Shown in pieces: positions 23,583-64,000 of a stretch of 64,000 nucleotides of DNA (position 1 is its first letter; every line of letters starts with the position of its first letter). Location: NCBI GenBank assembly GCA_037974665.1, contig CM075770.1, positions 9,002,501 to 9,066,500 of the forward strand, given 5' to 3'. The position numbers and the translations under genes were made by a program. The stretch comes from Ehretia macrophylla. Taxonomy: Eukaryota > Streptophyta > Magnoliopsida > Boraginales > Ehretiaceae. The notes under the pieces are model-generated. The model worked only from the letters and a program-made list of their open reading frames with translations, was not told the DNA's origin and did no database searches.

Positions 23583-23587
23583 CAGTC

Positions 23588-24880: not shown

Positions 24881-24899
24881 CCTCGGAGCTGGAGGCAGG

Positions 24900-25915: not shown

Positions 25916-26137
25916 GAGTTGAGGTCTCTATCTGTCGTGGGGTTGGTTTGGGTGGCTAAGCGTATACGTTGGCTCGTTCCAACGTCGGCTTAGATTGGTT
26001 CTTGGCTAGGCACCTGTGTGGTTTTGAGGTCCCCATCCGGGTTGGGCGAGTCCTCTACCGGTGCGCTGTAGATCCTTGTTTGTACCCATGGTGGTTTCTC
26101 AATGAGTGGTGAGAAGAGTGATAGAAAGAACTCGTTT

Positions 26138-26156
26138 CCCACAGACGACGCCAAAC
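26138..26156 (-). other. Primer-binding site of the outer element
   Basis: The element strand reads gtttggcgtcgtctgtggg immediately after the 5' LTR, one base different from the inner copy. Confidence 0.7.
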
Positions 26157-31409: not shown

Positions 31410-34360
31410 ATGAGCCAAGTATTTGAAGGATATGAACGCCAATACTGTGAGCTTTCGGCTAATTTATCCAAAAAATGCACCTCCGCTAGTCTCCTTGATG
31501 GAGGTAAGAATTATCATTAATTTTATTTTTTTTCAATTTATTTTACATTTTTCGGTTATATTTATATCTCTGTGTGTGTGTGTGTGTCAATTTTTTAATT
31601 TGTGTTGCAAATAATTGTATATCTGTGTGTGTATGTAATTTTTGTTATCCGGGTTTCGAATAGTTGTATATGCTTGTTTATTATGTTTTGAGCTATTGCT
31701 ATTTGCTACTCTTTTTATATAATGTGTAAATGATACTGCTTATTAATTAGGTTAAAATTGCCTTCAGATGCTTTTTCACTAGGAATAATGCACTAATGTT
31801 CGATATCACGATATAGGATGCTGGGACTTGTTTCACGCGTTGTTGTTTAAAGTATAATTACTGATACGCTTATATGGATAGGTGAATGTGGCTCTTTCTT
31901 TGGATTAGTTTTGGTTATTTTAGATTGAACAGGGCTAGTAAGTGAGCCAATCAATAAAAAAATGTGCCCACGTACTTAGCGTATATTAAGGGAGAGTTCC
32001 ATACGAAGAACTGCACTCTATAGTAAGTTGGTGCTTTAAGTTTACTTGTCCCAAAATTTTTATCGCAATCTTGTACTTGGAAATATGAGCCACTTAGGCT
32101 TTTATTAGTTATGTCAACAATTTATTAGTTATGTCAACAAAGTTAACATACTACTTTGTGGGAAGCTCCACTCAGAAAAAGAGGAGGGGAGGTCCCGTGT
32201 GGAATTGGGGGTGGTAGGTGGGAAATTGCTCGTCACATGTAACATGTTCAAACTTGTCGCTTGTTTGTTTTTATCTATCTTGATGAAAGTAGGCTTCTTT
32301 TTTTTTTTTCTATCTGTAAACATTGGTGTGTCATATCTGAAGGAATAGTTGTCTCTACGTTGATTTTATAGTTGATTGCTTTCTGACAAGTTATATTAGA
32401 GTAGAACCCTAATGTGGATATCGATACTTTTCTCCCCTTTCCGTTGTTACAGTCAGTTGCAAAATTTTGTGTGATGCTTATTATGTTAATCTGCTCTTCT
32501 CGACTTGTAACTTTTTCTTTTCCAATTTGAAACTCAGCTCTCTGGATGTTTTCCTCTTATGGTTTTCATTTTTATCCCTTAATCTTGAGGATTACATTTT
32601 TTTTTTTTTGTGATTGCAGAACAGAAGAAACAAAAAATCTCTGAAATAAAATCTGGGTTGGATGATGCTGAAGCTTTGGTATGTTTTTAGAACTATGGTT
32701 GAAAACTTAGATTTACTTCTAGAAGGCTTTGTTGAAAACAGAATCTGTCTCGTGTCTCCTCAGATTCGTAAAATGGACCTTGAGGCTAGGAGTTTGCCAC
32801 CAAGTGTGAAGGCTACGCTTTTGGCAAAGTTGAGGGAATATAAGTCTGACCTGAACAACTTGAAAAGTGAAGTCAAAAGAATTACATCATCAAATGGTAA
32901 CCAAGCTGCTCGTGATGAGTTGTTGGAGTCAGGATTGGCTGATACCAATATGGTATGCCTCCTTATCTAATTTCTTCTCATTATTCCTGCCATAAACACT
33001 CATCAAATAACTGAGATGATGAAATCTCTTCCTGTATTTCTTACTCATTTTTTTTGGTGGTGGTGGTGGTTTTCTTTTTTGTTTGTTTACATATATACAT
33101 GTGTGTGTGTGTGGGTGTTGTGGGGGTGGGGGTGGGGGGGGGGGTGGGGGGGGGTTTGATTGGAATGAGGTTTTAGTTTTCGGCCATTCTGGTGATGTCA
33201 GCTGTCAGAACGAGCTTTTGAGTATGTTCCTTTTTGGAGCTGGCTGCTACTCTGTCCTTTTATCACGTTTCGCGGTGAATAACTCAAGATATCGAGCAAT
33301 CAAGAATTGGCTCCATTAGTATACTTCAAGAAGACCCAATTATGACATCTTTGCAACTTGGAACTAGCCTCAGAGCTGAGTGTATGATTAGCCTCTTTTC
33401 TTCTGTTTCGTGGATGTTCTTGGTGACTTCTCAGTTAGAGACTTGCTACATAGCGTGCACTGCAAGCAGCTAACTTGAACATGCGAATATACAGCTCTTG
33501 TGCCATTAGGAACAGAAGAAAAAGGAAAAAAAAGGAAAATTATATCTCAAATCTGTTTCTCCTAGCTGTTTACCTAAAAGGACGTAAAATGCTGAGCAAG
33601 AACTCTAATGGCCACATGTGCTTCTACTATTTTACTGTTTTGGATAGTGAAGTTATCCAAAAACTATCTATTACTCAATGCTGATGCATGAAATACAGGT
33701 GGCTGCTGATCAAAGAACGAGGTTAATGATGTCAACTGAGAGATTAAATCAGTCAAGTGGCAGGATTAGGGAAAGTCGGAAAACAATGCTAGAAACTGAA
33801 GAACTTGGAGTTTCAATTCTTCAAGATTTACACCAACAGCGTCAGTCTCTGCTACATGCCCATAACACGGTATATCTATTTGTTCCTTTCTGCAAGATTT
33901 CTGTTAACACTTATTTTCCTCTGCTATTTGTTTTTTTTTTCCTCATTGGGAAAATTTGGTGAGAACTTGATTCTTATAACAGTAACATTTCAGATTGGTA
34001 ACAATAGTTAGAGTTTGAATAATTGGTGCTTTGTTCACTATCAAAAGAATTGGTAGCCATGAACTGAGCCTCTTATCTGCCTATTACTCTGAATTGCTAT
34101 TTGGTCTTGTTTGCTGAACAAGAGAACTTTAGTTAAATGAATTGATGCCTCTCAGGAAATTTAAACAAGTGGTTATGAAGATGTTTATGTTGTTCTTCTT
34201 TTGGCAGCTTCACGGTGTAGATGATAATATTAGCCGGAGCAAGAAAATTTTGACAACGATGTCAAGAAGGATGAGCAGGAACAAATGGATCATCGGTATC
34301 ATCATTGCAGTCTTAGTCCTTGCAATCTTATTAATTCTTTACTTTAAGCTGACACATTAA
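31410..34360 (+). CDS. VTI11: Vesicle v-SNARE, VTI11-like (Qb-SNARE)
   Basis: Five coding exons: 31410-31503, 32620-32678, 32764-32952, 33699-33869, 34208-34360. They total 666 bases and encode 221 residues, the length I recall for Arabidopsis VTI11. All introns are GT-AG. A further intron lies in the 5' leader (about 31207-31393). The protein begins MSQVFEGYERQYCELSANLS, has the N-terminal three-helix V-SNARE domain (about 8-95), a Qb SNARE heptad region (about 128-192, containing SILQDLHQQRQSLL) and a C-terminal membrane anchor (about 199-217) ending in YFKLTH. VTI1 proteins form SNARE complexes with SYP2/SYP5 or SYP4/SYP6 syntaxins and drive fusion between the trans-Golgi network, prevacuolar compartment and vacuole. 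LDGEQKKQK and LHGVDDNI favour VTI11 over VTI12. Intron 3 contains a long G-run (33116-33157). The gene looks intact. Confidence 0.93.
33116..33157 (+). other. G-rich tract in intron 3 of VTI11
   Basis: After a (TG)n stretch, intron 3 contains a nearly uninterrupted run of G with a few T, including segments of 5, 5, 10 and 9 G. It lies on the sense strand of the pre-mRNA. Confidence 0.9.
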
Positions 34361-36996
34361 ACTTGTCAGCATGAAGATCTACAATTCCTGTTGTTTCACC
34401 TTCCTTTCGGAAAAAGGTATTTGTTGCCAGATCCGAATTTTAACTTGCGGATTTTTGACGCTGGTTTGTTGTCTGTCTGCTTGCTGGGTTGCTGAACTTT
34501 CTTTCTTGGTCTTGCTTCTTGCATTTGTTCTTTTTTTTGTTTTTTTTGTTTTTAATCATTCTCAATTGTTATATAATGTTAAAGTGTGCTTGTTTGTTAT
34601 CTTGTTAACACATTCTGATGCCTCTCTCTTTCTTATTTTTCTTTCTGATCAGCATTTTTTTCCTCTCCTTGTGACTTGCATCAGCCAAAAGTTTATCTGA
34701 TTAGATCTACAATCTAACTAAATTACATATTAGAACGGAAAATTGTGTTACACTCAGTCATGTTCATGGGTCGAGGTCTCTGGTTCAAGTTTAGGATGGG
34801 TCAGGATAAAGAATAGAAGCTTTGGTCTGAATGCCGGGCAAATCTTTCAAGATTTCCTACACAAGCAAATAGAACACCTTTAAAGCGTATCAATACCGCT
34901 CTCGATATATCAGTAAGAGTAAGACGTGTAGGTGGATTGACTCATCAAATTTATCCTCGGATAAATGTTAGGAATATGTATAGTTACTTCCGAAGAGAGA
35001 AAATCAATGCGTGTGGCATTGTTCTGTAAACACAGGTTCAAATTTGGCATGCAATAATATCCAAAGAATTTGCTTCAACTTGGCTTGTGGCGCAGTTTTA
35101 CCCTATTTTATATTATAGAAATTGTGTGGTAAATGATATAATTGTTCAAAAAAAAAAAAAATTTGTTCAACCAAAATTGAAATCCTTTAAAACAAACTAA
35201 CACGAACCAAAGTACGTGCATAATTATCCATATAATATCAACATCGTAAAGAGCATTGTTAGATCACTCTTTTTTTATCCACTAGTTATTACCTCTTAAC
35301 TAAATGTTTAGTTGGAATGTAAAAAAAAAAAAAAAAATACAAAAATATTGTTAAATTGGTATGCCCGCTAAGCATGCACATAGGAGGTGTTAAATGGATG
35401 AGCGAAAAAGTTGGTATCTAAAATATCTCAATAAAAAAAAAAATGATATCTAACAATACTCTAAAGAAAATGCACTGTACCACCAGCCCTACCATTGTCC
35501 ATGCCAACTATGAAACCCGTCCCGATGATTGAGATCTTGCATAACCATAATAGTAATGAATTGCACAAGGGAAAGGAAAGGAAAGGAAACTAGAGAAAAC
35601 ATAATTAAAGAAAAAAGAGTTTTATATATCGTTTGGATTTGGATTAAAAAAAAAAGGAAGAAAATTATTAATCTTTATTTAAATTGGAGAATGAAAGCAA
35701 AGATTAGAATAATCTTTATTAAAAAATTATTTACATACCCTTTTCATATTCATTGTAATGTTAAAAATATAATTAAAATTATATAAAATTAATAAGGATA
35801 ATTAAAACATTTTACTCATAAATCTTTCATTTCCCTCCATAGAACCCTAAATTGGGAGGATTTGCAAACCTCTCTCGATAAAAGATTTTTCAATCCTTCC
35901 ATAACCTTCCCCCATTCCAAGAGCCTTTTTTTTTCTTTTTCTCTTTTTGGTCCCCTTTTTTTTTTATTGCTTGCTGAGATAATTATCTATGAACTTTCTT
36001 TTTTAGGTGATCTACATAAAAAAATTTCGATGTTAAGCATTACCATCATGGCTAGGATGTTCTACTTGTGATTAAGCTAATGTACAACAAATACAAGTAT
36101 CTCTTAATTAATTGATACCGTAATATCTATAGTAAGTGCATTCATCATAGTTAGCAGTACCAGCTGTGTCAAGGTCTAAGGGCGCTTTAACTGCGATAGA
36201 GCTTATTTAATATGAAGAAAGCAAGCATCTTGTGGTTAAAATATCACAGAGAAGAAGATGATTCTATTCCGCTTGTTTTCAAGATTTTAATCCCCCATCT
36301 CAGTGGACGAGATTCAACTTATGTTATGAGGGAGATTCAACGGTGGTGAACTTTCTATATACACTAATTATGATGAGATGATCTAAACAGTTTACTATCA
36401 TTAGATTTCTCTTATAACAATATATGTCATAAGCAGATCCAAATCTGTCAATAAAACAGTGGAGTCTGATGGATGCAACTAGATAAATTTTTAAGAAGTA
36501 TGTCAGAGAGGTTTCATTACCTTGATTTAATAGTAAAACCACACATTCAATGTTACCTTTCCCCTCAGAAACTCAACGAAAAATAGTTACGCGAAGATCC
36601 AGATAGCGAAATCCATCTAATTTTCCAACTAAGGAGATGAAGTTATGAAGCATAGTCTTGCCTACACCCACCATGGGGTAATTTTATCTGTGAAGGCAGA
36701 AATGGTTGGCCCTTCTCAGTCACCACTTAATAGGTGAAGCTGGGAGTTACCTCACAATCACATTATCCCACATATCTCACATGAAAAGTCGAAAACCGAG
36801 CAGCAAGCTAAAGAAAGTCTTTACCTCCACGAGTATTACCTGATGATCAAAGCAGCCATTCATGTTCAACTGTGAGTTGAGCTGCTGAATGTAGAATGGT
36901 CGACCGCATAGAAACTTCTAAGGAAAAAACTGTACCACTGAAAGGGGAAGGGGAAGGCCGTCATAAGGGAGAATTATATTCCTTCAAATAATAGCT
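34361..36996. other. 3' flanks of VTI11 and TOC1
   Basis: The genes on either side converge here, so both 3' UTRs lie in this stretch. No coding region is visible. It contains A-runs (35149-35161, 35321-35338), a short (GGAAA)n tract near 35570-35590 and a short segment resembling plastid rps7 (34904-34950). Confidence 0.6.
34904..34950 (+). other. Short segment resembling plastid rps7
   Basis: The stretch containing aagacgtgtaggtggattga and ctcatcaa closely follows, from memory, the plastid rps7 coding sequence around ARRVGGSTHQV, with differences mostly C-to-T. Flanking bases do not match convincingly. It could be a very short nuclear plastid insertion or chance. Confidence 0.3.
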
Positions 36997-39900
36997 TCAT
37001 CGTTGACACATTGGGTCATCCTCTGGTGAGCAATCTGTATTTATTGCTTGGTTGTCTTCATCATCATCCTCCTCTTCATCGTCATCATCGACTGAAGCTG
37101 GTTGCCCATTCAGATCAACATTTACACCATTCACCTTCCTCACAAATTGTCCTCTCACCCGAGGTCTGCGCTCTGCAAGCTGTTTTCGGTTGACATACCT
37201 GACTTTCTTGTTAAAACATCTTTCCTTCCTCTTCTGTCTGAACTTCCTCAAGGCTGCCTCTCTATGATCATCTTTATTTCCTTTGCCATCAGCGGAAGAG
37301 GAACTTTGATATGATGACCATGGATGTGGTGCTGGCGTTTGCCCTGGTTGTAGGCATATACCTACCGGATAATAAGGAAATGATGTCATCCCCGGCACAT
37401 GAGGAGGACACTGTGGAATATGATTAAATTGAGGAAACATAGTAGAATTAGGATGGTTGTGCAGATCTGGCATATTCTTTTGATACATTGCTGATGATGC
37501 CATCATAACTTGATTCATTACTCCTGAAATATAATATGGATAAGAAGTATGCGTATGACCTCCTGAAAGATCATGGTGCGGCTCACTTCTTTGATGCAAG
37601 TGCACCTGTGTGAACTCCTTCGAGTTCCCTTGTGAGAATTCCAGAGATGAAGGGGGAGTGTAAGACCTCTCCGCAGATAAAGATTCAGGAAAGCTATTAC
37701 TGCTTGGGTAGTCATCGCCTTGGATATGATTTTCCTGCAAATCTCTGTTAGCATGCCCTTGAGTATCATTATCCACTTGTCCTCCAGCTGTATCGAGCTT
37801 CTTGTCAATCCTCAAGTGTTGAGACATATTCTCATTGTTAGACACCGCCCCTTGGATGTTGCTCTTAGGCATACTTGATTTCATATATGTAAAGAAGGCT
37901 GAAGATTCACCTATCCTAAATCGACTCTTCTTTGGAAATAATGAGAGTTGTCCTAAAATTACCAAAATCTCGTTAGACATAAATTTACACAGAAGACAAG
38001 AAAATGAAAATTAAAGCAGGAGATAAAAAAATAAAAGATCAAACACTGATCTAATCCGTATAACATTCAATAAATCCCTACATCATGCAAACACATCGAT
38101 AGGTTGGACCAAACCCAGAAAGTGACTCCATGTTTGCAACTAAAGGAGTCAAATCATCCTATACACTACTGGGTGTTCCTAGTCTTTCTCCTATATCATT
38201 TTTGGGTGGGGTTGGGGGCGTGATAAAGAGGATGTTCAGATTCTAAGCTCATCGTGGATGTTTGGTAAAACCAGTTACAAGCTCTAAAGAAGCTTATTCT
38301 AAAAGTACCTCGCCTCCTACTTTCTCTCTCTCTCTCTCTTTTCCTCTCTCTTCTTTTTTGAGTTCATAAGCTTTTGGAGTTTAAGGTAGTTTGACTGGCA
38401 TTTAAATTTATGTACCCTACCGATACTTGTCTTGTACTATTATTATATTAAGTTTTAGAGCTTGTAAGCACTACAAAACCTTATGAGCTTAAAGCTTTTA
38501 CTTAAGTGACGCCAAGCACCACAGGAATCATCATTAATGATGCTCCAAATTGCTGAGAGGCATTATGAATATATACCTGAATGTAATCAACATGGAATAC
38601 ACAAGCAGTGCTGCATTAAGAGTTGTTGTACAGTAAAATTCAAAATGCTTAACTTATGGAATTCTAACGGGATCCAATGCATTAGTGATGGCACGATCCC
38701 ACCCTTTGTTGCATAGACCTCAATAGAATTTTGTCAAAAGATGCCACTTAAGAGGATAATTCAACTTACTTGGGGTCCAAAGCATTTTCTTATTGTCTTT
38801 CACTTGACCTACTTAATATGTATTCATTCCAATATTTTGTGTATACTGTATACTCCTTGGTTAGACTTAGCATTTTGTCTCAACTATCAAAGTTGCATCG
38901 ACTGGATGAGAAACTTCTAACCACACATTCACATCTACAAGAGAGGCAGTGCCTTTAATCCAAATGACATGGACACCTCATTCAACTAATTCATGCAACT
39001 TGACATCAAATCCATCTTCAAAATGGAACTACTGAGCAAAAATGAAACCACCACTCTGACCGATATCATCAGATTCATACATCACAGTAAGAGAGCCCAT
39101 ATGTGTGGAATGCAATGCAAAGTGGGTAGACTTAGCTAATTCACATTCCATTTGCATAGGTTTCTATCAAAGCACAAGTTAATGCTAACCCAAGAAAGGT
39201 CCCACACCTGTCTGCCAGTCACCAATTTCTGGCACATCGGGCTGACACTTCATTGAAGCCCTTGCTGAAGTCTCTACAGGAGCAGTAGCAGTGGCAGCAT
39301 AAGTCTGAAAATATAGATACACAAGACAACAGATGACATAGCCAACATATGTTAGTTAGATAAAGCTATTGCAGCAAGGAAATATTTCACGATAAATAGC
39401 AAAAGTAGCTGGACAAAAAATTCCATTGCAGGAAACGGGAAAGGTCTAACGTAAATCTTCAATATCACTTTTGCAACTGCTAATTTGACATGAGGCAGAT
39501 GATGATAGTATTTATGTATATTCTTTTTAATTGGTCAAGAGAACTGCATATTATTTCAGTCAACTGTTCAATAGGTTCACCCCCAAGAAAAAAACAAAAG
39601 AGAAAAGAAAAGATTTTTTTTTCTAGTTTAACTCTAAATAAACAACATCACTTAACTCGAAGTTGGATCAAGCAATCAGCAAAGAGCAACTTTGGCATAT
39701 TCCACAATAGCACAAATTTATTGGAACACCAGGAGGCATCCTCCCTCATCTTCCTACTGTCCAACTAATCCAATCCTCCATAGTTTCTATTTTCCATGTT
39801 GTCAAAGACTAGCTCGATCACATAAACCGAAATTAATTCTCAAAAAGGGATATGGACAACACTATGGCTCAAGGACACGAGCCATGACCAGCGTCTATTA

Positions 39901-42315
39901 ATTTGCAGTTTTTTTGGTCCTTGCAGAACTGCAGTTTGACTTAATATGATAAAAAGAAAAAAAAAATACTTAATATAGAACTTTAGCTTCTGGATATAAC
40001 AAGAATTCAACCATCCAATTTGCAAGCTGCATTTCTCCAAAGGCAAAACAGTATTAACTAAAGATCTGCAGATCCATTGTGAAATCCCACTTTAAAACTC
40101 TTTTGGCTAATTTATCCGGTGGTAGAGATATACATTTATTTGTGTTAAAAAATCAGAAACTTTTCAGCAATCAAACTTTAGACCTTTATGCAGTACATCA
40201 AGAAAAGAGCAAGATTGACAATAATTGTTGTTTTTATACTTCAAGTTGCAGACATCAAAATAAGTATAGAAACAATGACCAGAATTTAGCCAATAGGCGC
40301 CAGCAACACCAATTTCATTTTAAAATGGTTCACATTCCAGATATTCTTTTGTTATAAAAACATGGTGCTCCATATAACACTCACCTCGACTTCTTGGTGA
40401 TTGGAAACACAAGTATCTGGGTTGACACTCTTCCTGGACCTGTCATCCGTGTCATCAGAGAACAAAGTGGTACTATTTGTATTGGCATCGCTGGGGTCTG
40501 ATATGACCAGATCAAAATCATAATTCAACAAATTCTTCTCTGCTAGTCCAAGCTGTCCGCAAAAGGAAAATGGGTAACAGATTTTCAAAAGGAACATTTG
40601 AAAATTGCGAAAATTGAATACATAAAAAATATAATGGAGCTCCAGGTAGAGATGACATGTATAAAGCAGATGGCCCTTAATTAATAAAAGCAATATTCTT
40701 TTGTCAATGCAGATTAAGGAGGAGTAGCATTTTATGCATTGATGTCTCGCTCCGCTGATGGCCTTTCACTATCTCTAGTATATGTTTCACATGAAACTGA
40801 ACTATATCCTAAACATCAGACTAAGTTACTTTCCAATATTTTTTTTCGAGAAATAAGTTACTTCCCAATATTACCAGAGGTTGGAAAAATAATCTACTTA
40901 AGCAGCTCTCTTAGATAAAATATAGTCCAAATAATGAACTAAATAATTAAAAGAATAAAGTGAGATTGTATAGGGACGTGTACCATTCTCCTTCTTCTCC
41001 ACATGTGAGTCCACAAGTTCAATAGCTCATTAATTCGTAATGGTTTCACAAGATAGTCAGCAGCCCCCAGTTTCAGGCACTTGACGACAATGGGGACCTC
41101 ATCTCTTGCTGACATCACTGGGAAAGCAAAATGAAGCAAGGAAAATTATCGGCCGATACCTTCCAAAAACCAAATAACTTAAGAAAATAGTCAACCAAAC
41201 TAAAGAAAAAGTTGCTCACTAATGACTGGTATTCTTCGCAGCTGTTTATCCCTCATAATGTATTTCAACATCTTAGATCCTTTGGACATGGGAAGGTCAA
41301 CTTCAGAAAGAATGATATCAATGTCACGCCCTTCCGCGTTCAACGCATCAATTACTTGTCTAGGTGACCTCACCGAAGTCACTACATAGCAACAGTGATC
41401 CTCATTCAGAACACATATTTTGACAATTACCGTTCAAGCAACAGAAATGAGTTGCATCATCACATTCATATAGCCAAACTCACTTAGTAGAATAATAATA
41501 GCAGGAATGAGTGACGTGACATTAGTATACCCAACCCAGCCAGCAGGTGAACGATAATGGTTGAGATCGCACATACACACAAACATGGTAAAACACAACC
41601 AATACTGGCCAAAAATGAAAGTTATGGATACACTTATTCATTTCAAGATATAAAATGAATATTGTTAAGCCGTGTTAAGCTAGCTGATTGAGCATCGATT
41701 TTAATCTATATCTTTAGCTTCTCATTATTTATTCAATTCATGAGAAACCATTAAACACTACACACACACACATAAACACTGTAAAGACTTTGTGTTTGAC
41801 GTGCAAGTACTTGGGTTATCTACTACTGCCAATACGTACTTAAGCATTTTTCCCAATTAGGCTAATAGTTGGGTCGTATTATTACCACACGCTTAAGCAT
41901 TTTTCCCAGTTAGTCTAATAGTTAGGCCCGATGGGTGACTTTGACTTATGTCAACATCAGAGTCATCTTGTGTCAACACGAGCTTAAGCATTTTAACCAT
42001 TTAAAACGAATTAGCCTTACAGTTGGGCTAATAATTGGATTTCATTAGACTAATAATTGGACTTGAGTCGTGGCATATACATATGCAATAACACAAAATG
42101 AGTAATCAATTAATAACAAATAAAAGTTTATATTCAAGAATTAAATTTAATTTAATTCTTAAAAAAACAGAAATATAATTTTTTTTTTTTTTACCTTGAT
42201 ATGAACATTTAGAGAGAAGCGTGAAGACCTCTAGCGAGCTCTTGGCATCATTATCGCATAGCAAAATCCTCACTTTGCTCCTATCTATAAACCCTTCGCC
42301 ATTCTTCTCCATCAT
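36997..42315 (-). CDS. TOC1: Circadian clock pseudo-response regulator TOC1 (PRR1)
   Basis: Six coding exons on the minus strand: 42195-42315, 41220-41381, 40984-41117, 40385-40552, 39208-39304, 36997-37952. They total 1638 bases, 545 residues, with all junctions GT-AG and in phase. The pseudo-receiver spans about 15-135. It keeps the acidic pocket (LLCDND) and the conserved Lys in YLVKPL (K119), but the phospho-accepting Asp is Glu (E67 in IILSEVDLP), the mark of a PRR. Residues 458-500 are the CCT domain, from [10 protein letters not shown] to GQFVRK. The tail is acidic. Between them lie [13 protein letters not shown] and a His/Pro/Tyr-rich region. TOC1 is the evening-phased nuclear repressor that binds the CCA1/LHY promoters through CCT. 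A Glu-for-Asp swap and a C-terminal [11 protein letters not shown] support TOC1 over PRR3/5/7/9. Two receiver-only relatives lie upstream at 47 and 54 kb. Confidence 0.94.
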
Positions 42316-46000: not shown

Positions 46001-47203
46001 CATGCGTGTTAGAACTATAGTACAATAATTATTATTTATATAAAGATAATATCCTATTTATATCGTTTTCTATTAGTTCAAATTTTGTTAATCTTGTTAG
46101 GCTATTATCTTGTACGTTAAAATTTTCAAATGTTTATAACTTGACAGATTTAAATCCCTTTATAACACTTATATAGTTCTTTTGTAACATTATAACAAAT
46201 ATTTGAATCTTTAATTATTTAATCTAATAGCACTGGAAACGCTACTTATGCTATAAGAGAATCCAAATCCTTAACTTACACTTGAGATGAAATCTCCACT
46301 TGAGCGATCCTGATTCCTCAATTTGTCAATAGTCAACCAAATCACATAAATTATTCCTATGTCATGGGAATACAGAAGACTGTTCTTTGTAGTGCAACTC
46401 TCTTTGGAAAATTACAGTAATTAATTATTAGAAAAAATTCTTTTAGGATCAGGATAATTGAAGGAAAATATTATTCCATCCGCATATAAGTAGAGACGGA
46501 TTCAAGATGTTTTATTAGAGAGATTAAGGTGAGTTTAGATACCAAAAGCTAATGGGGGCTAAAGCAGTCTGCCAAAATTAGTAGAGTTATAGGAGTTAAA
46601 GTAATTAATTTTACTATCTAAACATACCAAGATGTTTAAAATATTTTGTCAAGTCAGTAAGGACTCCATTAATTAACTTGCATCTGCTCTTACATTTAAG
46701 ATCAGCATCCTCATACTTGAATTAGTAAGATTCTCATTCGGTAATGGATCCCACTCATACATTTAGTGAAGGTAAACCCTACATACCGTAGATCCCACTC
46801 TTTATAAGTGTATAGTGTCGGATGGGAGTATTTTCTTCAGACTGAATCACCCAGAGTATTTCATAAAAAAGCCACACCACTCGGGGCAATGGAGTGACAA
46901 TGTATTGAATAAATCCTATGAAGTGAGAAAAAAAAATATATCTTGGGAACAATCAGCCAAAGCATAACTAACAGTTAGGTGTATACCAAGAGATCAGGAG
47001 ACAGCTTCTTGGTTGGATTCGCATTATATTGGCTTAGAGCTTTTAGCCATGAGATTTTACCAAGTTTAGTGAAAATTGAAGATATTTTACAGACACACAT
47101 GTGAGATCTTCAATTTTCACAGACACACATGTGAGATTGTTTGTGAAGAAAGTTTTTATTATTAGTATAGGTAGGCTGCTGATAGTAGCATGTATTGCAT
47201 GCA
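43000..47203. other. AT-rich spacer between TOC1 and the receiver-only gene
   Basis: No coding region is recognised. It holds a hAT-like MITE (43299-43697) and pairs of tgtttgga-type words near 44388 and 44727 that may mark another decayed MITE. A 30-bp-spaced direct repeat of cagacacacatgtgagat (47090-47107, 47120-47137) lies 70-110 bp upstream of the receiver-only gene. Confidence 0.55.
43299..43697. mobile_element. hAT-like MITE
   Basis: The ends share the inverted motif ctctatttggcctaact / agttaggccaaacagaa, and the inner sequences (aaaagtactttttg, aaaagctgaagttg against caaaagctctact, cagtttaaaagtt) pair loosely. The end motif gtttggcc is common in plant hAT-type MITEs. No clear 8-bp duplication is seen and the element is diverged. 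Confidence 0.5.
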
Positions 47204-49694
47204 ATGGAGAAGGGTAAGAACATCTCTCATGTGAGTGGAAATGGCAGTCGTGGTATTGATCGTAACACAGTGAGGATTTTGCTTATGGATACAATGGTGG
47301 AGAGCTGCCAAGAAGTATTGGCTGATCTTTCCAAATGCTCCTACCAAGGTTCAGTTTGCTCATTTCTCGCATCCATTTTCATGATATCATAGAGTACGAA
47401 AAATATATTTGGAAAGTCTATTTTTTATACGATCGCATTCATATATGGATACAATCACTTTGTTTTCTTTTTTTTCTTTTTTTATAACAAGAAACATCTA
47501 TGGGAAATTCTTTGAAGTAGGGTTTAAATTTCGACACACATAACTCTGTCTAAAAGAAACATGATTCAAATTAATTAGACATAAAACCTACCGGTACTGA
47601 CTCCTAGAAGAATAACGATTATGTGCAACCTTGTATGACAAGCAGAGTGAATTGTTTTTCTTCTTTTCTTTTCCTTCATTATTGTTGGAGTAAGTAGTAC
47701 ATTGCTCGCATACATGGGCAAAATCATTCAATGGTGAGTGTATTTTTAGCACAAAAAATCAATTTAACCCCTACTTAGAAAAAAAATTGTATTTAAATGT
47801 TAATTAATTGTGTATTTAATGCTCATTGAACAAGGTTTTTAAATTTGTTCCTGCTCGTATACACAAAACACATGGACTAATTACTTGTGCAATATTGTAC
47901 ACGTTCTATAATTGTCATCAATTATTGGCTACATGATCCTGTCTGTTGACTTGTTAATTTGGCCTTTTTCCCCATTTACGCAGACTTAACGTAGCCAACT
48001 ACTTTTGGCTACATATTAATTAACCATTTAATTTGCTTTATACAATTTTCCACTTCATAAACTCCAAAGTAAGTACGATCATATTCTAGACCAACACATA
48101 ATTAAAACTTTATGCACGAGACTACCCTATATATATATATATATATATACACCTTCCGTATTCTCGTTAATTACTGAATTAGTTACTATCTTACTATTAT
48201 ATGTTTCCTTATCATCCATTGAAATATATTTTTATCTACGCTCTGGCTTAATTAGCTTATTTTAATTATTTCCGTCGATCATTTAAGAACATTTTATTAT
48301 TTTCAATTTCTTGTTGTTTTCAGTGATACCAATATGGCATGATGCTGAGATATACGAGGCTCTGAGTTTTAAGGGGCCTCACACAGATATTATACTTGCT
48401 GAAGTTGGCTTACTAATGGCACATGGTGCCCAAATGTTGAAGTATATTATGCGCAACGAAGCATTGCAGTGTATTCCTGTTATCAGTAAGCTTATTTCAA
48501 CCGATATTTTTTTTTTCGTGCATTGCTATATATTACTCCATCACTTGTTTACTATTTTTGATATGATAAAATTTTTGCTATATACGTCAGAGATTTGACA
48601 TTTAATTAATGAATGTTTATCATATAAGAAAAAAGGATAACAGATGACATAAAACATTACCCGTTTTCTTAACCGCTTACTAATTTTCTGATTTGGGACC
48701 TTAATCGAGATAACATACTTTTCCTTCACGTATTTGCAATTTGCATAGTGTTGTCAACACAAGATCAGGTTTCTCTTGTCATGAAGGGCTTGAAACTTGG
48801 AGCTGTTGACTATCTTATGAAGCCTCTACACGCTACTGAGATTTCCAATATATGGATGCATGCGCAAAAAAGGTGCACTCAACACCCCTCTAGTTACATG
48901 AATGTGTATAATACCCCAATATGGTACCATTAATAGCTACTAAATCTACTATATTTTTTATCTATTATAATATTTAAAATTATTATAAAAATACTAAAAA
49001 ACGTGAAAATTAATTTTAATTGTTGCATATGATTCCGTTACAAATTCTTTACTGTAATTTTTTTTGTAAATAACAAATAACAGTTTAAAAACCTTAATTT
49101 GCATTATAATTATAATATTAAAACTGTTGCAAAAATGTTATCTAAAAAAAGTTAATCATTACAATTAAATAAAATAATTTTAAAAAAATTTAATTTATAC
49201 AACGGTTAAAAAAAATCAGTAAAGAAACTTTTCATTCTTTTAATTATTAAAGTGTTGCAAAAGTATTAATATATTGCACTCAATATAGAAACCACGTGCT
49301 CCAGTCCCCACTTTTGAAAACAGGACCTTTGCAATTTTAGTCTAGTTTTATATACAAAACGAACGTTACCGTGTTTATAGGGTCTAATGATGGACAAGTT
49401 TATTCGGTACCCTATTGATAGATATGTATATTTATGTATTGGTTGAAATGAAATTATGCGTCCCTTGCCATTTGTGATAGTGATTTCGATTAAAAATATA
49501 TATATATATAATATCGTTCACGAGCAGCCTTGTTGTAGTCTTAATTTACACAAAAATTCTTAAGTCAATTTAAATTGAATTATCAATCTTTTATATGTGA
49601 ATCCTACTAATATATAAAAAACTTATGTGAGTCTAATCCGAATTGATCGAATAATTTCCATAATTTACATACACCTCTTCGCTTTTGCAGCTAA
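47204..49694 (+). CDS. TOC1-like receiver-only protein (truncated PRR paralogue)
   Basis: Three coding exons match the TOC1 receiver at the same intron positions and phases: 47204-47348, 48324-48485 (162 bases, identical in length to TOC1 exon 2) and 48749-48872. A fourth exon beginning at 49691 would add one residue and a stop, giving about 144 residues. Without that splice, exon 3 runs on to a stop at 48931-48933. Visible blocks are VRILLMDTMVESCQEVLADL, DIILAEVGLLMAHGAQMLKY and LKLGAVDYLMKPL. As in TOC1 the phospho site is Glu (AEV); the second acidic-pocket Asp is also lost (MDTMV), while the Lys (MKPL) is kept. There is no CCT domain. The start chosen (MEKGK) aligns with the relative at 54 kb (MDKGK). 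The first intron's donor (ag|gttcag) is weak. It could be a dominant-negative-like partner of PRRs or a young pseudogene; expression is unknown. Confidence 0.6.
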
Positions 49695-50758
49695 AGTATG
49701 CCAGAGGACCGCAACCATTGCTGTGCAAACTGCATGAAGCAAGTCTCTGCCTTTCACTAGACATGACTCATGAGGGACAGCGAAGGCAAGCGGAATTTGT
49801 TCTTGGTTGTATTAAGAATCAATATTTAGAAATTAAGACCATTATTTTAAATTAATAAAGTAGGACCATTGTGATCCTTGTGATGCAAGTCTTTAATGTC
49901 TGTGAACTATGAAGACTGATGTTGTTTGGCCCTTTTTTTTTGCTGGGAAATGTTTGGCCCTTTTTGGTTAATGATATGTTTCTTTTTTCGTAAACAAAAA
50001 GTAGATTAGACTAACCCTAAGTGTTAGTTTAGTAGTGGAGTACTACTTGGAATATAGACAAGAGATTTGTTTATGTCTCGAGTTTGATTCCATCAATAAG
50101 TTAATTTTCTTAGTAGGTCTTATATTGTTAGCAAACTTAAACCATGTTTTTTTCCGAACAAAGATTTTTCTGTCATTCAAAGGAAAAGGAAAAAAGAGAG
50201 AGGGATTGGATTCCAGAGAGTGCAATCCGTAGGATAGTTTCTTTAGGAAAGTATACTTCAAGCCTCTAGGAAAAAGAAAAAAAAAAAAAAGAAAAAAAGT
50301 ACACGTTTGATATTCAATAATTAATTCGAAAAGAAAAAATCAATCTTTTCGACAATGGATTCTCAGAATATCAGTACGCATAAGTACCAAACTAAATTTT
50401 TGGCATTTTAGTAATAAGCATCATCCGCAAAACAACTGCTGAACAGCTCTTTTCAAATGTAATTAGAAATGTGTTGAGAATCAAAATTTGCAGTGTCATT
50501 AATTACCCTTCATCATCAGTTGGTGTAGCATCAAGATACTTTCTCTCGCTGGTCTGCTTGCCCAAAAATATATTTTAGAGAATTATATGTTGTTAGCCTT
50601 ATCGAAAAAGGAAACAAACCACTTTGTTTGGCAAATGTAATTAGAAATGATTGGATTTTTGAGAGATTTTTAAGTCCTTTCTCTTGTTTAGATTGGAGGG
50701 TGTTGGGGATGATTTGATTAGGGGATATTTTGAAAATTCATTTATTGGGTTGATTTAT

Positions 50759-50781
50759 AATCACCCCAAATTGGGGTGATT
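50759..50781. repeat. Perfect short palindrome
   Basis: Two inverted 11-base arms, aatcaccccaa and its complement, around a single A form an uninterrupted hairpin. Confidence 0.9.
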
Positions 50782-51778
50782 TGAATTAAATGTCCATATT
50801 TATAATATTATAAGTGAAATTTAATTTTAAAAATTAATTTATAAGAGGGATAATATATACATTTGATTCAATCTTTGAATTATATGTTTATATTTTCCCT
50901 TTTAGTTTTATAATATTACACTTATCTTTTTGTAAATATTATTATACCTTTACCTTTAGAATATGATAAAAATGTCAATTTGCTTATAAAACTTATTCTT
51001 TCCTTTTATTTCCTTTTTATCCAAAGAAAGAATATACATATTAATTCTTTATTAACCTTCCTTTATAATTTTACCTAATCCGAACCTGCAAATTTAATCC
51101 TCTAATTTTCTTTCCTTTACTATTGAATCATTTCCTTTCTTTTATTTTTTTTTCCTTCCGAATCCAGACAAGCCGTAAGAGCCTTTTACAAAGTAACAAG
51201 TGTAACATTAAAACAACTTTCAATTAAATATCGTCACTCAAACACCTTTTGAGTGTTGGTACTTATCCATTAAAAATTAGAAAATTACAACTTACAACCT
51301 CCTATCAAGGTTTTTTTTTTTTTTTTTTTTAAGTTGTTGATTTTCTCACTAAATGTTCTATTTCCAATCTATCGCAAAATTTGAATTGGCATACAATTAT
51401 TTTCATTTACGATTGGTCATGCTCTTGATTAGACTTGTTACTTTCAATCAATTTTTATGTTATTGGAGAATATTATAATATTCCACTTGATTATTATTCT
51501 TATTAATTGTACAATTAATAAAAGTAAATGACAATTTAAAGAATTTAAGTTACATACTACCATATGTGATTGAAAACTTTGCTTTATATCTACAACCAAC
51601 TATGGAAATGTTATGATCAATCTGGGCAGTTATATTGCATAACAAATTAATGTTGTGACCATAAGCCAAAAATTTTGATAAAGACTAGTAAAACAACACA
51701 TGTTAGGCTATGTTTCTTATTTGTAGTATTCCTATAAAGTCTACTACTAGAAGAGATTCTACTGCAAGTTTTTAAATC

Positions 51779-52899
51779 CTAAGGTAGCGATTGGTATCTT
51801 GAAATGATTTTAGACATGAATAAAATGTGTTAAAGAATAAAATGACCCTGGGAATGGAACGAACTTGGAAAGGGGTATGTCATGTTTGATATGCTCTAGG
51901 TTTGAAAATAGAAATGAATATATTGATTATATATAATCCCATATTTGGTAGTCACTATAATAGTGTAGTAATGAGAATAGCTTTGATATGCTCTAGGTTT
52001 GAAAATAGAAATGAATATATTTATTATATATAATCCCATATTTGGTAGTCACTATAATAGTGTAGTAATGAGAATAACTTACATAAAATGACATACCCCT
52101 TTCCAAGTTCGTTGTATATATAATCCCATATTTGGTAGTCACTATAACAGAGTAGTAATGATAATAATTTACATAAAATGCCACAAATGACTTTTGTTAC
52201 TATAGATATATTATTGTCTTGAAAATACAAATAAGCATCATAATAATAATAATAATAAAGGTTAGTTTGAGGCATATTATCATTATTGTATTTATTAATT
52301 TTTATCTTTATTATTTATTTTTTATTATTATCATTTAATATATTATTATTAGATTTATGTTATTTATTATTCATATTACTTATTAAATTTATATTATGTA
52401 TTATTATTTGATATATTTTATTAGTTATATATTATAATTATTATTATAATATATTTTTATGTTATTATGATTATTATTATTATATTATATATAGTTATTA
52501 TATTATCTTATACTATTTTTATATTTATTTTATTATTATTATTATATTTTATTGATATTATTTATTATTAATATAAAAATAGTAATAAAATAACAATAAT
52601 TATTATAAAGATATTAATAATATAAATAATAACAATAATAAATAAAAATACATATATTAATAATAATGTTATTAGTATAGCTTGTAATATGATTTTTTTT
52701 AAGGCTAATTTAGCCACTTGACAAAGCACATGAGAATGGGCTATTCATATGTGTTTTATTAGCAATGAGTGTTCCCAAATTCGTAAGAATGAGATTTCTA
52801 ATATCATTCCTTTATACCAAGCGGAGAAATTAAAATAAAATTGAAAATATCATTCTATTCTCATCTCATCCCCACATACCAGTCGCCACCTAATGCTAT
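51779..52899. mobile_element. Non-autonomous element with internal repeats (Mutator-like?)
   Basis: The ends carry the inverted motif aaggtagcgattggtat / ataccagtcgccacct. The flanks share the 10-mer tttttaaatc (51769-51778 and 52900-52909), compatible with a 9-10-bp target duplication. Inside are a perfect 26-bp inverted repeat (51858-51883 and 52088-52113), a 97-bp tandem duplication (51885-51981, 51982-52078) with a partial third copy (about 52113-52168), and a TAT/ATT-rich block (about 52225-52680). It has no coding capacity. Confidence 0.6.
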
Positions 52900-53161
52900 T
52901 TTTTAAATCTAGATGGGCTAAACACAAGACTGTGTATATAGTTTTACTCCTAAACCTAATAATTTATTGCCAGAAATTTAATAAAAGGGGTTCAAGTTCA
53001 ATTTTCTAAATATTTAATAATCAAAATATTCAAATTTTCTATTATGACATAACTAAGGTATAATTTTTCAAGCAAATGGTGCAACATAATAGAAATGTTT
53101 CTTAAACTGAAAATAAAGTGAAAATTAATAGGAACCATAATTAGCTCCAAGAGATACTAAC

Positions 53162-54883
53162 CATGGGCATGTTTCTTTGAATGTGAGACCACAGCTTCAT
53201 TAGGTCATCTGTGTGCAGTGGGTTAACAAGATAATCAGTTGGCTCCAAAAGCCATGCCTTTAAAAATTAAAGGAACTTTACCCTCTGCCAAAAGCACTTG
53301 TCATAATATAGAGTAATATATAAATAAATAAATTATTCACTTTAAAAAAATGTATACCTAACAGAAAAGTGGTCATATATATTTAAATATTCCCTAAATT
53401 ATAGCACTAATTTTCACGAATTCGACCTGTAAAAAAAATAAAAAATTATGGCACTAATTTAGGATAGTTTTTTTATTTTACTGTTTTAGATTAGTTTCTG
53501 ATTTCTTGGGCACTAAGTTTTCACGCTTATGTATAGGCTCTCTTCTTGTATATATTCATATTTCATAATATTCAACTTTAATATATCAAGATTTTCTATC
53601 CATATCTCTTCTCTTCTTTTAACTAGTGAAAAATTATAGAATACTTAGTTACAGAATTAGACATCCTCTTGTGGTAATAATAATATAATTACTCTTTTAA
53701 TGCATCATCCAAATACAACACTCCTCTTTCCTTTTTCGGTGAGCTACTTTCCTTGAACAATTAAATCTCGATCCTAGGAGCATAAGACTTTGCCTACTAT
53801 TTACAATATTTATATATACATAAATGCAACATTCTAAGCTTAATTAGGTCTTCAAAAAGATATAAAAGTTTAGGTCTTTAAACAATAATTGTATGAAGCA
53901 TTAATTAATTAATTGCGTCCAATTTTCGTGTTTTTCTATTTATGGATGCAGCATGTCTAATCATGTATTAGTGAATTCCAGCAAAATCTATAAATGGTAA
54001 GGAAATAAAAGTAGCTATTATTAAACATGATAGATTAGACAATGATGTGTGTTTTTGCTCAAAATTAATTAGCAAATTGGAAACACTAATATTTCTCCAC
54101 ATCATCTAATACTTAATTTGTCTCGACACGATATATATTATTAGACATGTTTTGTGTCCAATCTCGTATACTCATTCCACCAAAAAGTTATGGAAAAACT
54201 ACATTGCCATGGGGAAAGAGGAGCAACAATGCATGTGATTAGGAATAATATGTTTGAACGTAACTAAGAATAGAAACCACATGATTAATTACTAAGCTCA
54301 TTCGTTAATTATTCAATAATTGGCTATATAATTAGGCAAGCTCTTGTACTAACAATAACTAACAACTACCGTGATGCATCATGAGTTATTATTATCTTGT
54401 GGGGCGCACGGTCGGGCTCCGTCAACTGAATTTTCACGTCATTCAAAAAAATCATGAGCTATTACCTTTTTTGTCTTTATTAATTTCAATTTGGTAGAAA
54501 TTATTAATCTTCGCCCGTAACTATCAATTTAAATTTGATTAAACAAGTACGCTAATCAGATAAACAAAATTGACACTTTTTTTTATGTAAAAAATTGACA
54601 CTTTTTAAAATCACACAAGAAAAAATAGCTAAATTACGTGAAAGACAACCTCTATTTTTCAATGTAATATCAAATCATAATATTATAACGTTACGAGAGA
54701 ATTCAAACTAATACTCTCATAAGAACATTTGGTGAGAAGTGTGAATGATTCTTGACAGCTCTCCACGTCGGTGTCAAAAAGCAGAATCTTCAGTTTGCTA
54801 CGATCAATATGATCATGGCTCCTCATTGAATCATCGCTATCACTACAATTTTCACTGGTCATAATGCTTTTGCCCTTGTCCAT
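53162..54883 (-). pseudogene. Decayed TOC1-like receiver pseudogene
   Basis: The start region (ATG at 54881-54883) encodes MDKGKSIMTSENCSDSDDSM and then DRSKLKILLFDTDVESCQES, FTLLTKCSYE, equivalent to TOC1 exon 1. Exon 3 is recognisable at about 53162-53303 with LLEPTDYLVNPLHTDDLMKL and WSHIQRNMPM before a splice donor at the TOC1 position. Exon 2 was not found. Exon 3 lacks a proper acceptor, is 8 bases longer than in TOC1, contains an in-frame stop near its start, and its conserved Lys is Asn (VNPL). It shares VESCQE and leader sequence (gcatgcaatgga-like) with the plus-strand locus at 47.2 kb, so the two probably arose from one TOC1-derived ancestor. No CCT domain is present. Confidence 0.75.
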
Positions 54884-59008: not shown

Positions 59009-60673
59009 CTATTCCTGCATTCCTTGTAGAGCCTCTGAATTATCTAGATCGAAGTCTTGGAACTTCCCTTGCTTTGTGACAACGCCAAGCATCTCATAGA
59101 TTGAAGATGTGTGCTTGTGAGTCTCATCACCAGCCAGAAAATCGTGAATAACTCCATCTATCTCAATCCAACTTCGACCCGGAGGCTTTCGCACTCCCAT
59201 CTCAAGCATCTTCCTTCTCAAATCCACCACATCCTTCCACTTCTTAGCTGTAGAATATACATTTGACATGAGCACTAAATATCCAGCAGCACCATTGGGG
59301 TTGAGTTCCAGGGCCAAATTCTCGGCTACGTTAGAAGCCAACTCCACATTTTTGTGAATCCTACAACCACCAAGAAGAGCACCCCAGACTGCATCATTAG
59401 GCTTGATAGGCATGGTCTTTACAAGCCTTTCGGCTTCATCTAACAACCCCGCACGACTCAGGAGATCAACCATGCATCCATAATGCTCAATATTCGGCTC
59501 AATACCCCAAGTCTCACTCATTCTCTTAAAATAATGGCGTCCCTCATCAACATAACCAGCATGGCTGCAGGCAGATAGAACACCAAGAAACGTTATTTCA
59601 TCCGGTCTAGCATCACTCCCTCCTATCCTTTCCATCTCCTGGAACACTCCAAGAGCTTCCTCTGCATACCCTTGTTTTGCAAAACCAGTAATCATACTCG
59701 TCCAAGAAATCGTCGTCCTTCGTGGCATCCGATTAAATACCTCATAAGCTTCGCCAATTACACCACAACTAGCATACATATGTATCAATGAATTATACAA
59801 TGATATCACCACCGGCTGCTTTTTAGCACGCAAGCTCTCAGCAACATACGAATGGACCCACTTCCCGAGGCTTAAATCACCCAATTCCGCACACGCAGAC
59901 AACACTGCCACCAAAGACACCTGATCAAATTCCACTCTCTCCCTCCGCATTTTACAAAACAAGGCCACAGCTTCCTTACACCTCCCCTTTCGCGTGCAAC
60001 CTGCAATCATAGTTGTCCACGAAACGACATTCCTCTCCGGCATCTCATCAAAAACTCGTCGCGCCTCATCCACATTCCCACACCTAAAACACCCCGAAAC
60101 CAACGAACTCCACGCCACCACATTCCTCTCACGCATTTCATCAAACACCCTCCGTGCAGTCCCGACCCCCTCCTCCCCTCCAAGACCCGCATACAAATTC
60201 ACTAAATTAGTCCTCACAAACACATTTGAAGAAAACCCATTTCTCAAAACTCTACAATGAACCTGTTCACCCTCTTTCACCAAACCCCCTTTCACACAAC
60301 CACTAAGTACATAAACATAAGTATACCCGTCGGGCCGGGCCGTGGATCTTTCCATTCGGGTAAAAATCTGGACTGATTTATGTGGGTCATTGCTACAAGC
60401 ATGCCCTCTGATTATTTGATTCCAAAGAATGGTACTTGGGTTTTCGACGATTTCAAAAACTTTGGTGGCGTGGAAGAGATTATTGAAAGTTATGTATATG
60501 GATAATAGCTTAGCAATGATACAGTTTTTTTGGGTTAAGCCATTTGTGATGATTTGGGTGTGGATTTGGGTGTTTTGTTTTAGGTTTTTGGTTGTTTGTA
60601 ACAGAGTGAAGAGGTGTTGTTGAAAAGATCTCGACGCTGTTTGGTTGGCGGGAATGAGCTCTTCAACTGACAT
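59009..60673 (-). CDS. PLS-class pentatricopeptide repeat protein (E/E+ type)
   Basis: Intact single-exon gene of 554 codons. The ATG at 60671-60673 opens MSVEELIPANQTASRSFQQH. Degenerate 31-36-residue repeats of P, L and S type run from about 45 to 425, with repeated units such as ARRVFDEMPERNVVSWTTMI (about 204-223). An E domain follows (about 428-500, WGALLGGCRIHKNVELA, YVLMSN-like LVLMSNVYSTAKKW), then an E+ motif (about 500-530, SWIEIDGVIHDFLAGDETHK). There is no DYW deaminase domain. Such proteins bind single-stranded RNA in chloroplasts or mitochondria and usually specify C-to-U editing sites with a DYW partner. The first 20 residues are hydroxylated and poor in acid apart from EE at 4-5, compatible with but not proof of an organelle signal. 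The exact orthologue is not recognised. Confidence 0.92.
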   Translation of the reverse strand: MSVEELIPANQTASRSFQQHLFTLLQTTKNLKQNTQIHTQIITNGLTQKNCIIAKLLSIYITFNNLFHATKVFEIVENPSTILWNQIIRGHACSNDPHKSVQIFTRMERSTARPDGYTYVYVLSGCVKGGLVKEGEQVHCRVLRNGFSSNVFVRTNLVNLYAGLGGEEGVGTARRVFDEMRERNVVAWSSLVSGCFRCGNVDEARRVFDEMPERNVVSWTTMIAGCTRKGRCKEAVALFCKMRRERVEFDQVSLVAVLSACAELGDLSLGKWVHSYVAESLRAKKQPVVISLYNSLIHMYASCGVIGEAYEVFNRMPRRTTISWTSMITGFAKQGYAEEALGVFQEMERIGGSDARPDEITFLGVLSACSHAGYVDEGRHYFKRMSETWGIEPNIEHYGCMVDLLSRAGLLDEAERLVKTMPIKPNDAVWGALLGGCRIHKNVELASNVAENLALELNPNGAAGYLVLMSNVYSTAKKWKDVVDLRRKMLEMGVRKPPGRSWIEIDGVIHDFLAGDETHKHTSSIYEMLGVVTKQGKFQDFDLDNSEALQGMQE

Positions 60674-62691: not shown

Positions 62692-63697
62692 TTAAACTGC
62701 AACCGGTTCAGGCCTTTTGCTGGTCTTAATGCCTTTAATTGCTGCACCACAGATGTTCAATTTGCGGACAGAGTTAAATAAATGAAAATTATGTTATGTA
62801 AGAATTGGAAGGAATTTCTGTATCCCTACCTTCTGCATAATCTGGAGCCCCAAAGACGGCAGATCCAGCAACCAATGCATTAGCTCCAGCCTCAATGACC
62901 TGCCAACGAGATCTTAGTGAAAATAGTGCTTAATGCATACACACTTTCATATGACAAATATAGGCTTAAAAGCTTTGACAGTCTCTAAGTTATTTGAAGA
63001 ACGGCATTAAACTATATTTTGTTGCTAAAAGGACCATTAAAGTTTTCAAATGACTTCAAAATGCTCCTTATCATATGCCATCCAAAAATTCTGAAGGGTA
63101 GGGGTCATAGAAATTGGAGTGAATCCCAGTCGAACACCACATAATTGCATCGGGGGAGATGAAATTAACATTGATGGAAAATACCGTTATGAGTACCTTG
63201 AGAATTTGGAATTTCTTTGGGCTTGGGGCAACGGTGAATAGGGAAGATTAAGAAAAGGGAAAAAGGAATAAGAAGAAGAAGAAGAGCCTTCTAGGAGTAA
63301 TTTGATTGATGAAGTGAGACATCGTGTTGCTTTATGATAACTAATGCCGATACATGCTTTACCGTGCATATGTGCATTGCTAAAATGTTAATAGATTTAT
63401 GAAAATCAGACAAATGGGGCAGAGAAGGGGTAATTCTATGAATTTGAATGTGTCACCTTATAAGCATTTTTAGGACCAACCCCTCCATCTACCTCGATCC
63501 ATGGATTCACCCCCTGCAGGAAAAACACAAAACTTTAAAACTGCATGCCGAGTCAACATAAAGGCTGCAGATATGACAATGTAATACCTTCTCTGCACAC
63601 ATTCTTCTTAAGTCTGAGATTTTCTTCACTTGGCTCTCAATAAAGCTCTGTCCACCAAATCCAGGGTTTACTGACATAATTAATACCAGATCGACCA
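62692..63697 (-). CDS. RPE: Ribulose-phosphate 3-epimerase, chloroplast type (3' exons)
   Basis: The last four exons on the minus strand are 63588-63697, 63457-63513, 62830-62899 and 62692-62741, all with GT-AG borders and matching phases. They encode [20 protein letters not shown], then [53 protein letters not shown] and [16 protein letters not shown] before the stop. The enzyme interconverts ribulose 5-phosphate and xylulose 5-phosphate in the Calvin cycle and oxidative pentose-phosphate pathway. NPGFGGQ is the flexible active-site loop, the Asp of EVDGG is a metal/catalytic residue and GSAVFG binds the phosphate. The [11 protein letters not shown] tail fits the plastid form. The 5' exons, including the transit peptide, lie past position 64000. 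Confidence 0.93.
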
Positions 63698-64000
63698 CTG
63701 CCAAACATGTAAGGAATATCATTTAATGAATTTTACATTATCTGGGCAAACAAATGCTGAATGATAAGAGAAATGGTTAATAACTACTAGACCAGCCCAT
63801 CTTGGACTGACATAGGGTTTTGCCACTCGTGCAATTGTCTTTTCTTTCTTTTCCTAGAGATTTGGAGAAAGCTGCATCCAAATATTTTATAATCCAACAT
63901 CCCTAAAAGGAAGAGCATAAGTTCGTCTCTCTTTCAGCTATAGGACTCAGAGATCAAATTCCTTTTGTTGGTCAAAACACAGATCATATTCCTCAAGCTG
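63698..64000 (-). other. RPE intron, 5' part outside the window
   Basis: The stretch after the acceptor at 63698-63700 (cag on the minus strand) shows no exon-like sequence up to the window edge, so it is read as intron. The preceding exon must end in a single G completing a Val codon. Confidence 0.6.

Follow-up and report, generated by a model that had tools for sequence, protein, structure and literature searches.

Receiver-only copies beside TOC1

We analysed a 64-kb window of the Ehretia macrophylla genome (G000:C7:9002501-9066500, within a 1.58-Gb genome of 20 contigs), which carries the clock gene TOC1 and, beside it, two loci that resemble only the TOC1 pseudo-receiver. Positions are those of the window, unless contig C15 is named. 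The full-length TOC1 gene (T7) lay on the minus strand (36997..42312, ATG at 42312). Its receiver was encoded by three exons (42312-42195, 41381-41220 and 41117-40984), exon 4 was at 40552-40385, and a CCT domain was recognized within 38010-36997 (PF06203, 57.3 bits). The plus-strand copy, P7, was head to head with TOC1, its start 4.9 kb from the TOC1 ATG. The minus-strand copy, M7, had the opposite orientation to P7 and started 12.6 kb from the same ATG. In both, the similarity to TOC1 was confined to the receiver, as described in an earlier note on this DNA, which had reported two opposite-strand loci near TOC1 with a receiver match only.

When the 64-kb window was searched with the TOC1 exons, exons 1–3 of P7 and exon 1 of M7 were matched with E-values of 2e-8 to 1e-12, and exon 3 of M7 with 5e-6. 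Judged by sequence similarity, chance is ruled out as a source of these matches. Further receiver-only TOC1 copies were not apparent among the 32 matches listed for P7 and the 46 listed for TOC1 as query (E up to 10), as judged from the match table for the best candidates, rather than by reading the loci singly.

Structure and product of P7

P7 had an intact start codon and an intact frame over three exons, with no lesion seen. Exon 1 (47204..47348, plus strand) comprised the ATG, a 17-residue leader (MEKGKNISHVSGNGSRG) and the start of the receiver, and ended in phase 1 with AAG before the donor GTTCAG. Exon 2 (48324..48485, plus strand) was 162 nt long, as in TOC1, with phase 1 at both ends, the acceptor TTTCAG and the donor GTAAGC. 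Exon 3 (48749..48934, plus strand) encoded the receiver end with the KP motif. It would end at 48872 if a donor GTGCAC after AAG is used, and otherwise stays open to a stop ending at 48934. The first two introns were GT/AG and in phase 1, the same as in TOC1.

The earlier note had predicted a fourth exon for the plus-strand copy (49691..49710, plus strand), which would add one Ser and then a TAA. Compared with TOC1 exon 4, this sequence scored no better than shuffled DNA (p 0.38 and, under a second scoring, 0.57; 500 shuffles), and the exon is left without homology support. The product is 144 amino acids long with the proposed exon and 163 if the last intron is unused (16.1 or 18.5 kDa), and receiver-only in both cases. 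The spliced receiver reached 42.1 bits against Pfam Response_reg (cut-off 30.2); from the unspliced frames only exon 3 matched, with 21.9 bits, below the cut-off.

Identity to TOC1 was 19/31 receiver residues in exon 1, 25/54 in exon 2 and 22/42 in exon 3. The phospho-acceptor position held a Glu (IILAEV), the phospho-accepting aspartate thus being absent, and the acidic pocket was reduced, with CDND changed to MDTM (DND to DTM) and DLP to GLL. P7 retained the Ser that follows VIML and the Lys-Pro in KPL, as well as the prolines of IPVI and KPL, which we take to correspond to the sites of the missense changes P96L and P124S in Arabidopsis TOC1 discussed below. Among solved structures, the best sequence match was ARR1 (8xat, E 1.8e-12).

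M7, a pseudogene

Two relics remained of M7, both on the minus strand. Exon 1 (54715..54883) was open, with the ATG kept and a GT at the former donor site, and exon 3 (53162..53296) was frameshifted into a stop. Exon 2 was not found between them at E up to 0.1 (best E 0.37); the same search recovered exon 3 at E 1e-7 and, in a control, all three exons of P7. With exon 2 not found and exon 3 frameshifted into a stop, M7 was rejected as a second gene and is, by its sequence, a pseudogene. The "gene pair" of the earlier note is thereby reduced to one intact copy, P7. Its remark that VESCQE and leader sequence are common to P7 and M7 and missing from TOC1 held for both TOC1 copies of the genome, the shared leader reading M[ED]KGK.

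Family placement

A tree was calculated from 16 receivers over 127 columns, several of the sequences being fragmentary. TOC1 and the plus- and minus-strand copies (P and M) split from the remaining receivers with an ultrafast bootstrap (UFBoot) of 100. P7 and its counterpart on contig C15, P15, grouped at UFBoot 97, and M7 joined them at 91. P7 thus grouped with TOC1, apart from the receivers of other PRRs and of type-B ARRs.

The earlier note had also drawn on exon structure, and here the intron phases and the 162-nt exon 2 stood, though not the length as a mark of TOC1. Among 16 loci compared, labelled PRR-like or type-B-like from their sequences, exon 2 had both the 162-nt length and the junctions of TOC1 in all four other PRR-like loci where it was found whole (L052, L054, L056 and L057), and it was three residues shorter in 7/7 type-B-like loci matched to its end. 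Exon 2 of this length therefore marks PRR genes rather than TOC1 alone, and we rejected it as TOC1-specific. The exon structure points to a PRR; the tree and the linkage point to TOC1.

P7 had no C-terminal CCT domain. In the window and an 80-kb piece of C15, strong CCT and exon-4 matches were found only in the two TOC1 genes. A single weak CCT hit (25 residues, E 0.015) lay on C15, >10 kb from both receiver-only relics there.

A second TOC1 block on C15

This piece of C15 (27.145-27.225 Mb) contained a second TOC1 (T15, C15:27155995-27162305, in L045), with the receiver, exon 4 and the CCT-bearing part conserved. Beside it were two relics, P15 and M15, arranged and oriented like P7 and M7 beside T7. 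In P15, exon 1 was not found, exon 2, the homolog of P7 exon 2, had six extra bases and a TAG, CT replaced the donor GT, and the exon 3 match ended at KPL. For M15, only exon 1 was found, with stops and a gap.

Because the relics keep order and strand, both P and M are, on sequence evidence, older than the duplication of the block between C7 and C15. No match to TOC1 exon 4 or CCT was found beside P7, M7, P15 or M15 (E up to 0.1), so that the truncation most simply, and probably, predates the split of P and M. The tree and the C15 relics support the origin proposed in the earlier note, a single receiver-only ancestor derived from TOC1 and then duplicated in inverted orientation, with both events before the block duplication. 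The depth of the node separating TOC1 and P was about 3.3 times that of the block duplication, a rough figure owing to saturation.

The M15 relic was flanked by a segment that matches 58.4-58.7 kb of the window and is duplicated on C15, at local positions 31259-39659 (L047) and 58562-68344 (L049-L050), with about 89-94% identity.

Selection on the P lineage

A codon model was fitted to 126 receiver codons of T7, T15, P7 and P15; for P15, exon 1, the last part of exon 3 and the codons affected by its indel were left out. With free branch lengths, omega (dN/dS) was 0.09 for TOC1, 0.21 for the internal branch between TOC1 and P (p 2e-4 against 1) and 0.44 for P7 and P15 together (p 0.022). The block duplication parted T7 from T15 and P7 from P15 at one time, which allows TOC1 and P of the same block to be given equal neutral branch lengths. 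With lengths tied in this way, omega after the duplication was 0.35 for P7 (p 0.010) and 0.36 for P7 and P15 (p 6.5e-5). In an equal-time model, in which the internal branch was also halved, omega was 0.35 for P and 0.10 for TOC1, and twice the log-likelihood difference (2dlnL) was 25.4 (p 4.6e-7). None of 120 simulations under a P omega of 1 reached this value (maximum 6.86), and with P15 left out 2dlnL was still 20.6.

We also calculated how probable the open frame of P7 would be under neutrality. At the fitted distance of 0.287 substitutions per site, the probability of no stop was 0.017, and that of no stop together with a surviving ATG and eight intact splice bases was about 0.001, frameshifts not being counted. 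At the shorter distances of neutral fits, no stop had a probability of 0.10 (0.145 substitutions per site) or 0.17 (0.106), and 0.021 or 0.053, respectively, with the ATG and the eight splice bases also surviving.

Evening Elements upstream of P7

A perfect Evening Element (AAAATATCT, 47080..47088, minus strand) was located 124 bp upstream of the P7 ATG, in a 5' region alignable to C15 (46922..47107, plus strand, 70.8%). Within 500 bp upstream, such elements were found for four of the six TOC1, P and M starts (T15 at -237, P7 at -124, M7 at -462 and P15 at about -273, its start being inferred), and for neither T7 nor M15. Among the nine copies in 144 kb, four were thus near these starts (binomial p 2e-5, or 3e-4 without P15; several other promoter motifs were tested besides this one). 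The placement is compatible with a dusk expression of P7, lending support, not proof.

Just 5' of P7, at 47092-47136, there was a local repeat around ACACACATGTGAGAT with two CACATGTG boxes; the C15 alignment had one diverged unit there. We set the tandem CACATGTG boxes aside as a promoter signal, as they are part of this repeat.

P7 as a possible clock microProtein

The receiver-only locus is real, old and TOC1-derived, with one intact member, and is probably functional or only recently not so. Our leading reading, to which we give close to even weight, is that P7 has been retained as a protein-coding paralogue of TOC1, cut down to the pseudo-receiver and working like a trans-microProtein. 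It starts from what was observed at P7, namely the homology, the gene structure, the origin before the block duplication, the purifying selection on the lineage and the absence of a CCT. A duplicated TOC1 would have lost, or never had, exons 4-6, giving the P ancestor, and an inverted duplication of this ancestor would have given M. The trio of TOC1, P and M would have been copied to the second chromosome block, where both derivatives died. On C7, we infer that P7 would be transcribed around dusk via its Evening Element and translated into a free receiver that could bind PRR partners (TOC1 itself, PRR5, PRR9 or PRR3) or the TOC1 degradation machinery (ZTL). Lacking a CCT, it could not put a repressor on DNA, and would titrate or buffer TOC1/PRR complexes, as a small brake on the clock in the style of a trans-microProtein.

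PRR homo- and heterodimers require the pseudo-receiver (PR) domain (PMC9486492), and the interaction of PRR9 with TOC1 goes through the receiver (PMC2292679). The repressor activity of TOC1 resides in its receiver and needs a functional CCT (Gendron 2012 as described in PMC6378743). A free receiver, if made at the right hour, should therefore bind and yet not repress, and the idea of a clock competitor fits the published roles of receiver and CCT. The missense changes P96L and P124S in the amino-terminal part of TOC1 give clock phenotypes in Arabidopsis; the binding of ZTL and PRR3 to this part was unsettled as of 2008 (PMC2292679).

Several observations weigh against a functional competitor. 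Three of the four receiver-only copies (P15, M7 and M15) are broken. With free branch lengths, omega for P7 alone was 0.385 and not significant (p 0.31). The broken P15 had a similar omega of 0.39 (p 0.076 against 1, tied lengths), so that a low omega alone is no proof of present function, and the death of P15 was probably late. The constraint on P7 was looser than that on TOC1 (p 0.0105 tied, 0.032 untied), and the omega of the lineage includes constraint from before the truncation. Without P15, the omega of P dropped to 0.14 on a saturated internal branch, an unstable estimate, for which reason the departure from neutrality is better established than the value 0.35 itself. A dN/dS near 1, named in the earlier note as a refuting outcome, is rejected for the whole P lineage (0.35, p 5e-7). 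For P7 after the duplication the result is less firm (p 0.010 with tied lengths, 0.31 with untied), and the evidence of constraint is moderate. With a receiver identity to TOC1 of 66/127 overall, the dimer face of P7 may have changed. The donors GTTCAG of exon 1 and GTGCAC of exon 3 appear weak by eye. Evening Elements were not enriched across the window (5 seen, 2.35 expected; 12 of 100 shuffles reached 5), and the perfect element of P15 was at a different aligned position from that of P7.

P7 might instead be in late decay, a remnant of a once functional receiver-only gene that is now functionless and not yet disabled. We hold this, the main rival, to be quite possible, though less likely than the leading reading. 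Past function as a receiver-only gene would give a low dN/dS over the history of P7, its three sister copies are broken, and the P7-only test with free lengths was not significant. The open frame is not very improbable on a short neutral branch (probability of no stop 0.10-0.17), although the joint survival of frame, ATG and eight splice bases falls to about 0.001 at the fitted distance. The intact start codon, first two introns and frame of P7 and the tied-length test (p 0.010) also speak against decay. In grape, two additional TOC1-clade pseudogenes are listed (PMC9486492 Table 1), which counts in favour of decay.

It is unlikely, in our view, that P7 is functional in a way other than competition, protecting TOC1 as PRR3 is reported to do or acting outside the clock. 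PRR3 binds TOC1 and inhibits its degradation (PMC2887406), and the faster evolution of P7 compared with TOC1, together with its changed loops (DLP to GLL, CDND to MDTM), allows an altered partner. The present data do not separate such a role from competition; its position next to TOC1 and its Evening Element point towards the clock rather than to a role outside it. Least of all do we expect P and M to act as RNA, silencing TOC1 by small RNAs or an antisense hairpin, which their opposite orientation and shared ancestry with TOC1 might suggest. The exons of P7 and M7 matched the TOC1 genomic span exactly over at most 15 nt in the sense direction, T7 and T15 being compared, and over at most 11 nt in antisense, compared for T7; the selection found acts on protein. 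A 15-nt match is shorter than usual for targeting by small interfering RNAs, and silencing of TOC1 was set aside as very improbable.

Known relatives and significance

The closest relative of P7 is TOC1/PRR1 itself, which is adjacent, nearest in the tree and shares the intron positions and phases of the pseudo-receiver and the Glu at the phospho-acceptor. In contrast to TOC1, no linker or CCT was found in P7, which evolved faster, has DND changed to DTM and carries its own leader. Two known forms are the nearest in kind. In Solanaceae, a PRR7 retains the receiver and lacks the CCT, like P7 (PMC6895785); it belongs to the PRR7 clade, and is not described, in the parts of the source used, as a receiver-only copy beside an intact parent. 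The TOC1-beta splice form of Arabidopsis retains intron 4, and a premature stop would shorten TOC1; it comes from the same gene as TOC1 and is a reported target of nonsense-mediated decay, whereas P7 is a separate gene (PMC4035800).

Trans-microProteins, such as miP1a/b acting on CONSTANS and the MINI ZINC FINGERs, consist of a single interaction domain and are encoded by a gene separate from that of the larger regulator, at 7-20 kDa (PMC6003976). P7 has this form, with a single domain, 16.1 or 18.5 kDa and a separate gene related to a multidomain protein. Known trans-microProteins bind a target through the shared domain, disturb its complexes and have a dominant phenotype. For P7, binding would be expected from published PRR receiver interactions; selection and the Evening Element are what bears on its transcription and translation. 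In the literature searched, as far as its texts were covered, neither a receiver-type microProtein from a PRR nor a receiver-only TOC1 gene was noticed. The grape pseudogenes are likewise two extra TOC1-clade sequences (PMC9486492 Table 1); their position, length and domains are unstated in the text of that source, and they are perhaps unrelated relics.

According to a review, TOC1 has one copy in angiosperms (PMC9486492); duplicates, PRR1a and PRR1b, are reported in Chinese cabbage. In the Ehretia genome there are still two TOC1 genes, each conserved in its receiver, exon 4 and CCT parts, and one of them has a receiver-only relative that bears the signature of long purifying selection. A wider proposal, which we regard as doubtful, is that TOC1 has long had a linked satellite gene that encodes a free pseudo-receiver, is under selection and under the control of an Evening Element, and modulates TOC1 as a clock microProtein. 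If true, this gene would be far older than the block duplication, given the 3.3-fold node depth, and its like may have been overlooked in other eudicots, as PRR surveys search for the CCT or class copies of this kind as pseudogenes, perhaps in grape. If P7 is expressed, it would offer a natural test of what a PRR receiver does by itself, both in dimerization and in degradation, when DNA binding is missing, and would show that CCT-based surveys overlook clock components. Even if P7 is no more than a decaying copy, it documents a local duplication of TOC1 hidden from gene counts.

Neighbouring features

At 31414-34496 (plus strand) we found the exons of a gene that belongs to the duplicated block beside TOC1, its peptides being 88-96% identical to those on C15; it reads like a VTI1-type v-SNARE. 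An open 554-amino-acid PPR protein with an E motif was encoded at 59009-60673 (minus strand); its best match in the 80-kb C15 piece, at about 28% identity, was not a close one. An exon of a ribulose-phosphate 3-epimerase was recognized at 63507-63722 (minus strand). The region from about 7000 to 27000 was G + C-rich (43-57%, against 25-41% in the surroundings) and had peptide matches recurring at a spacing of about 6.9 kb; it looks like nested transposable elements.

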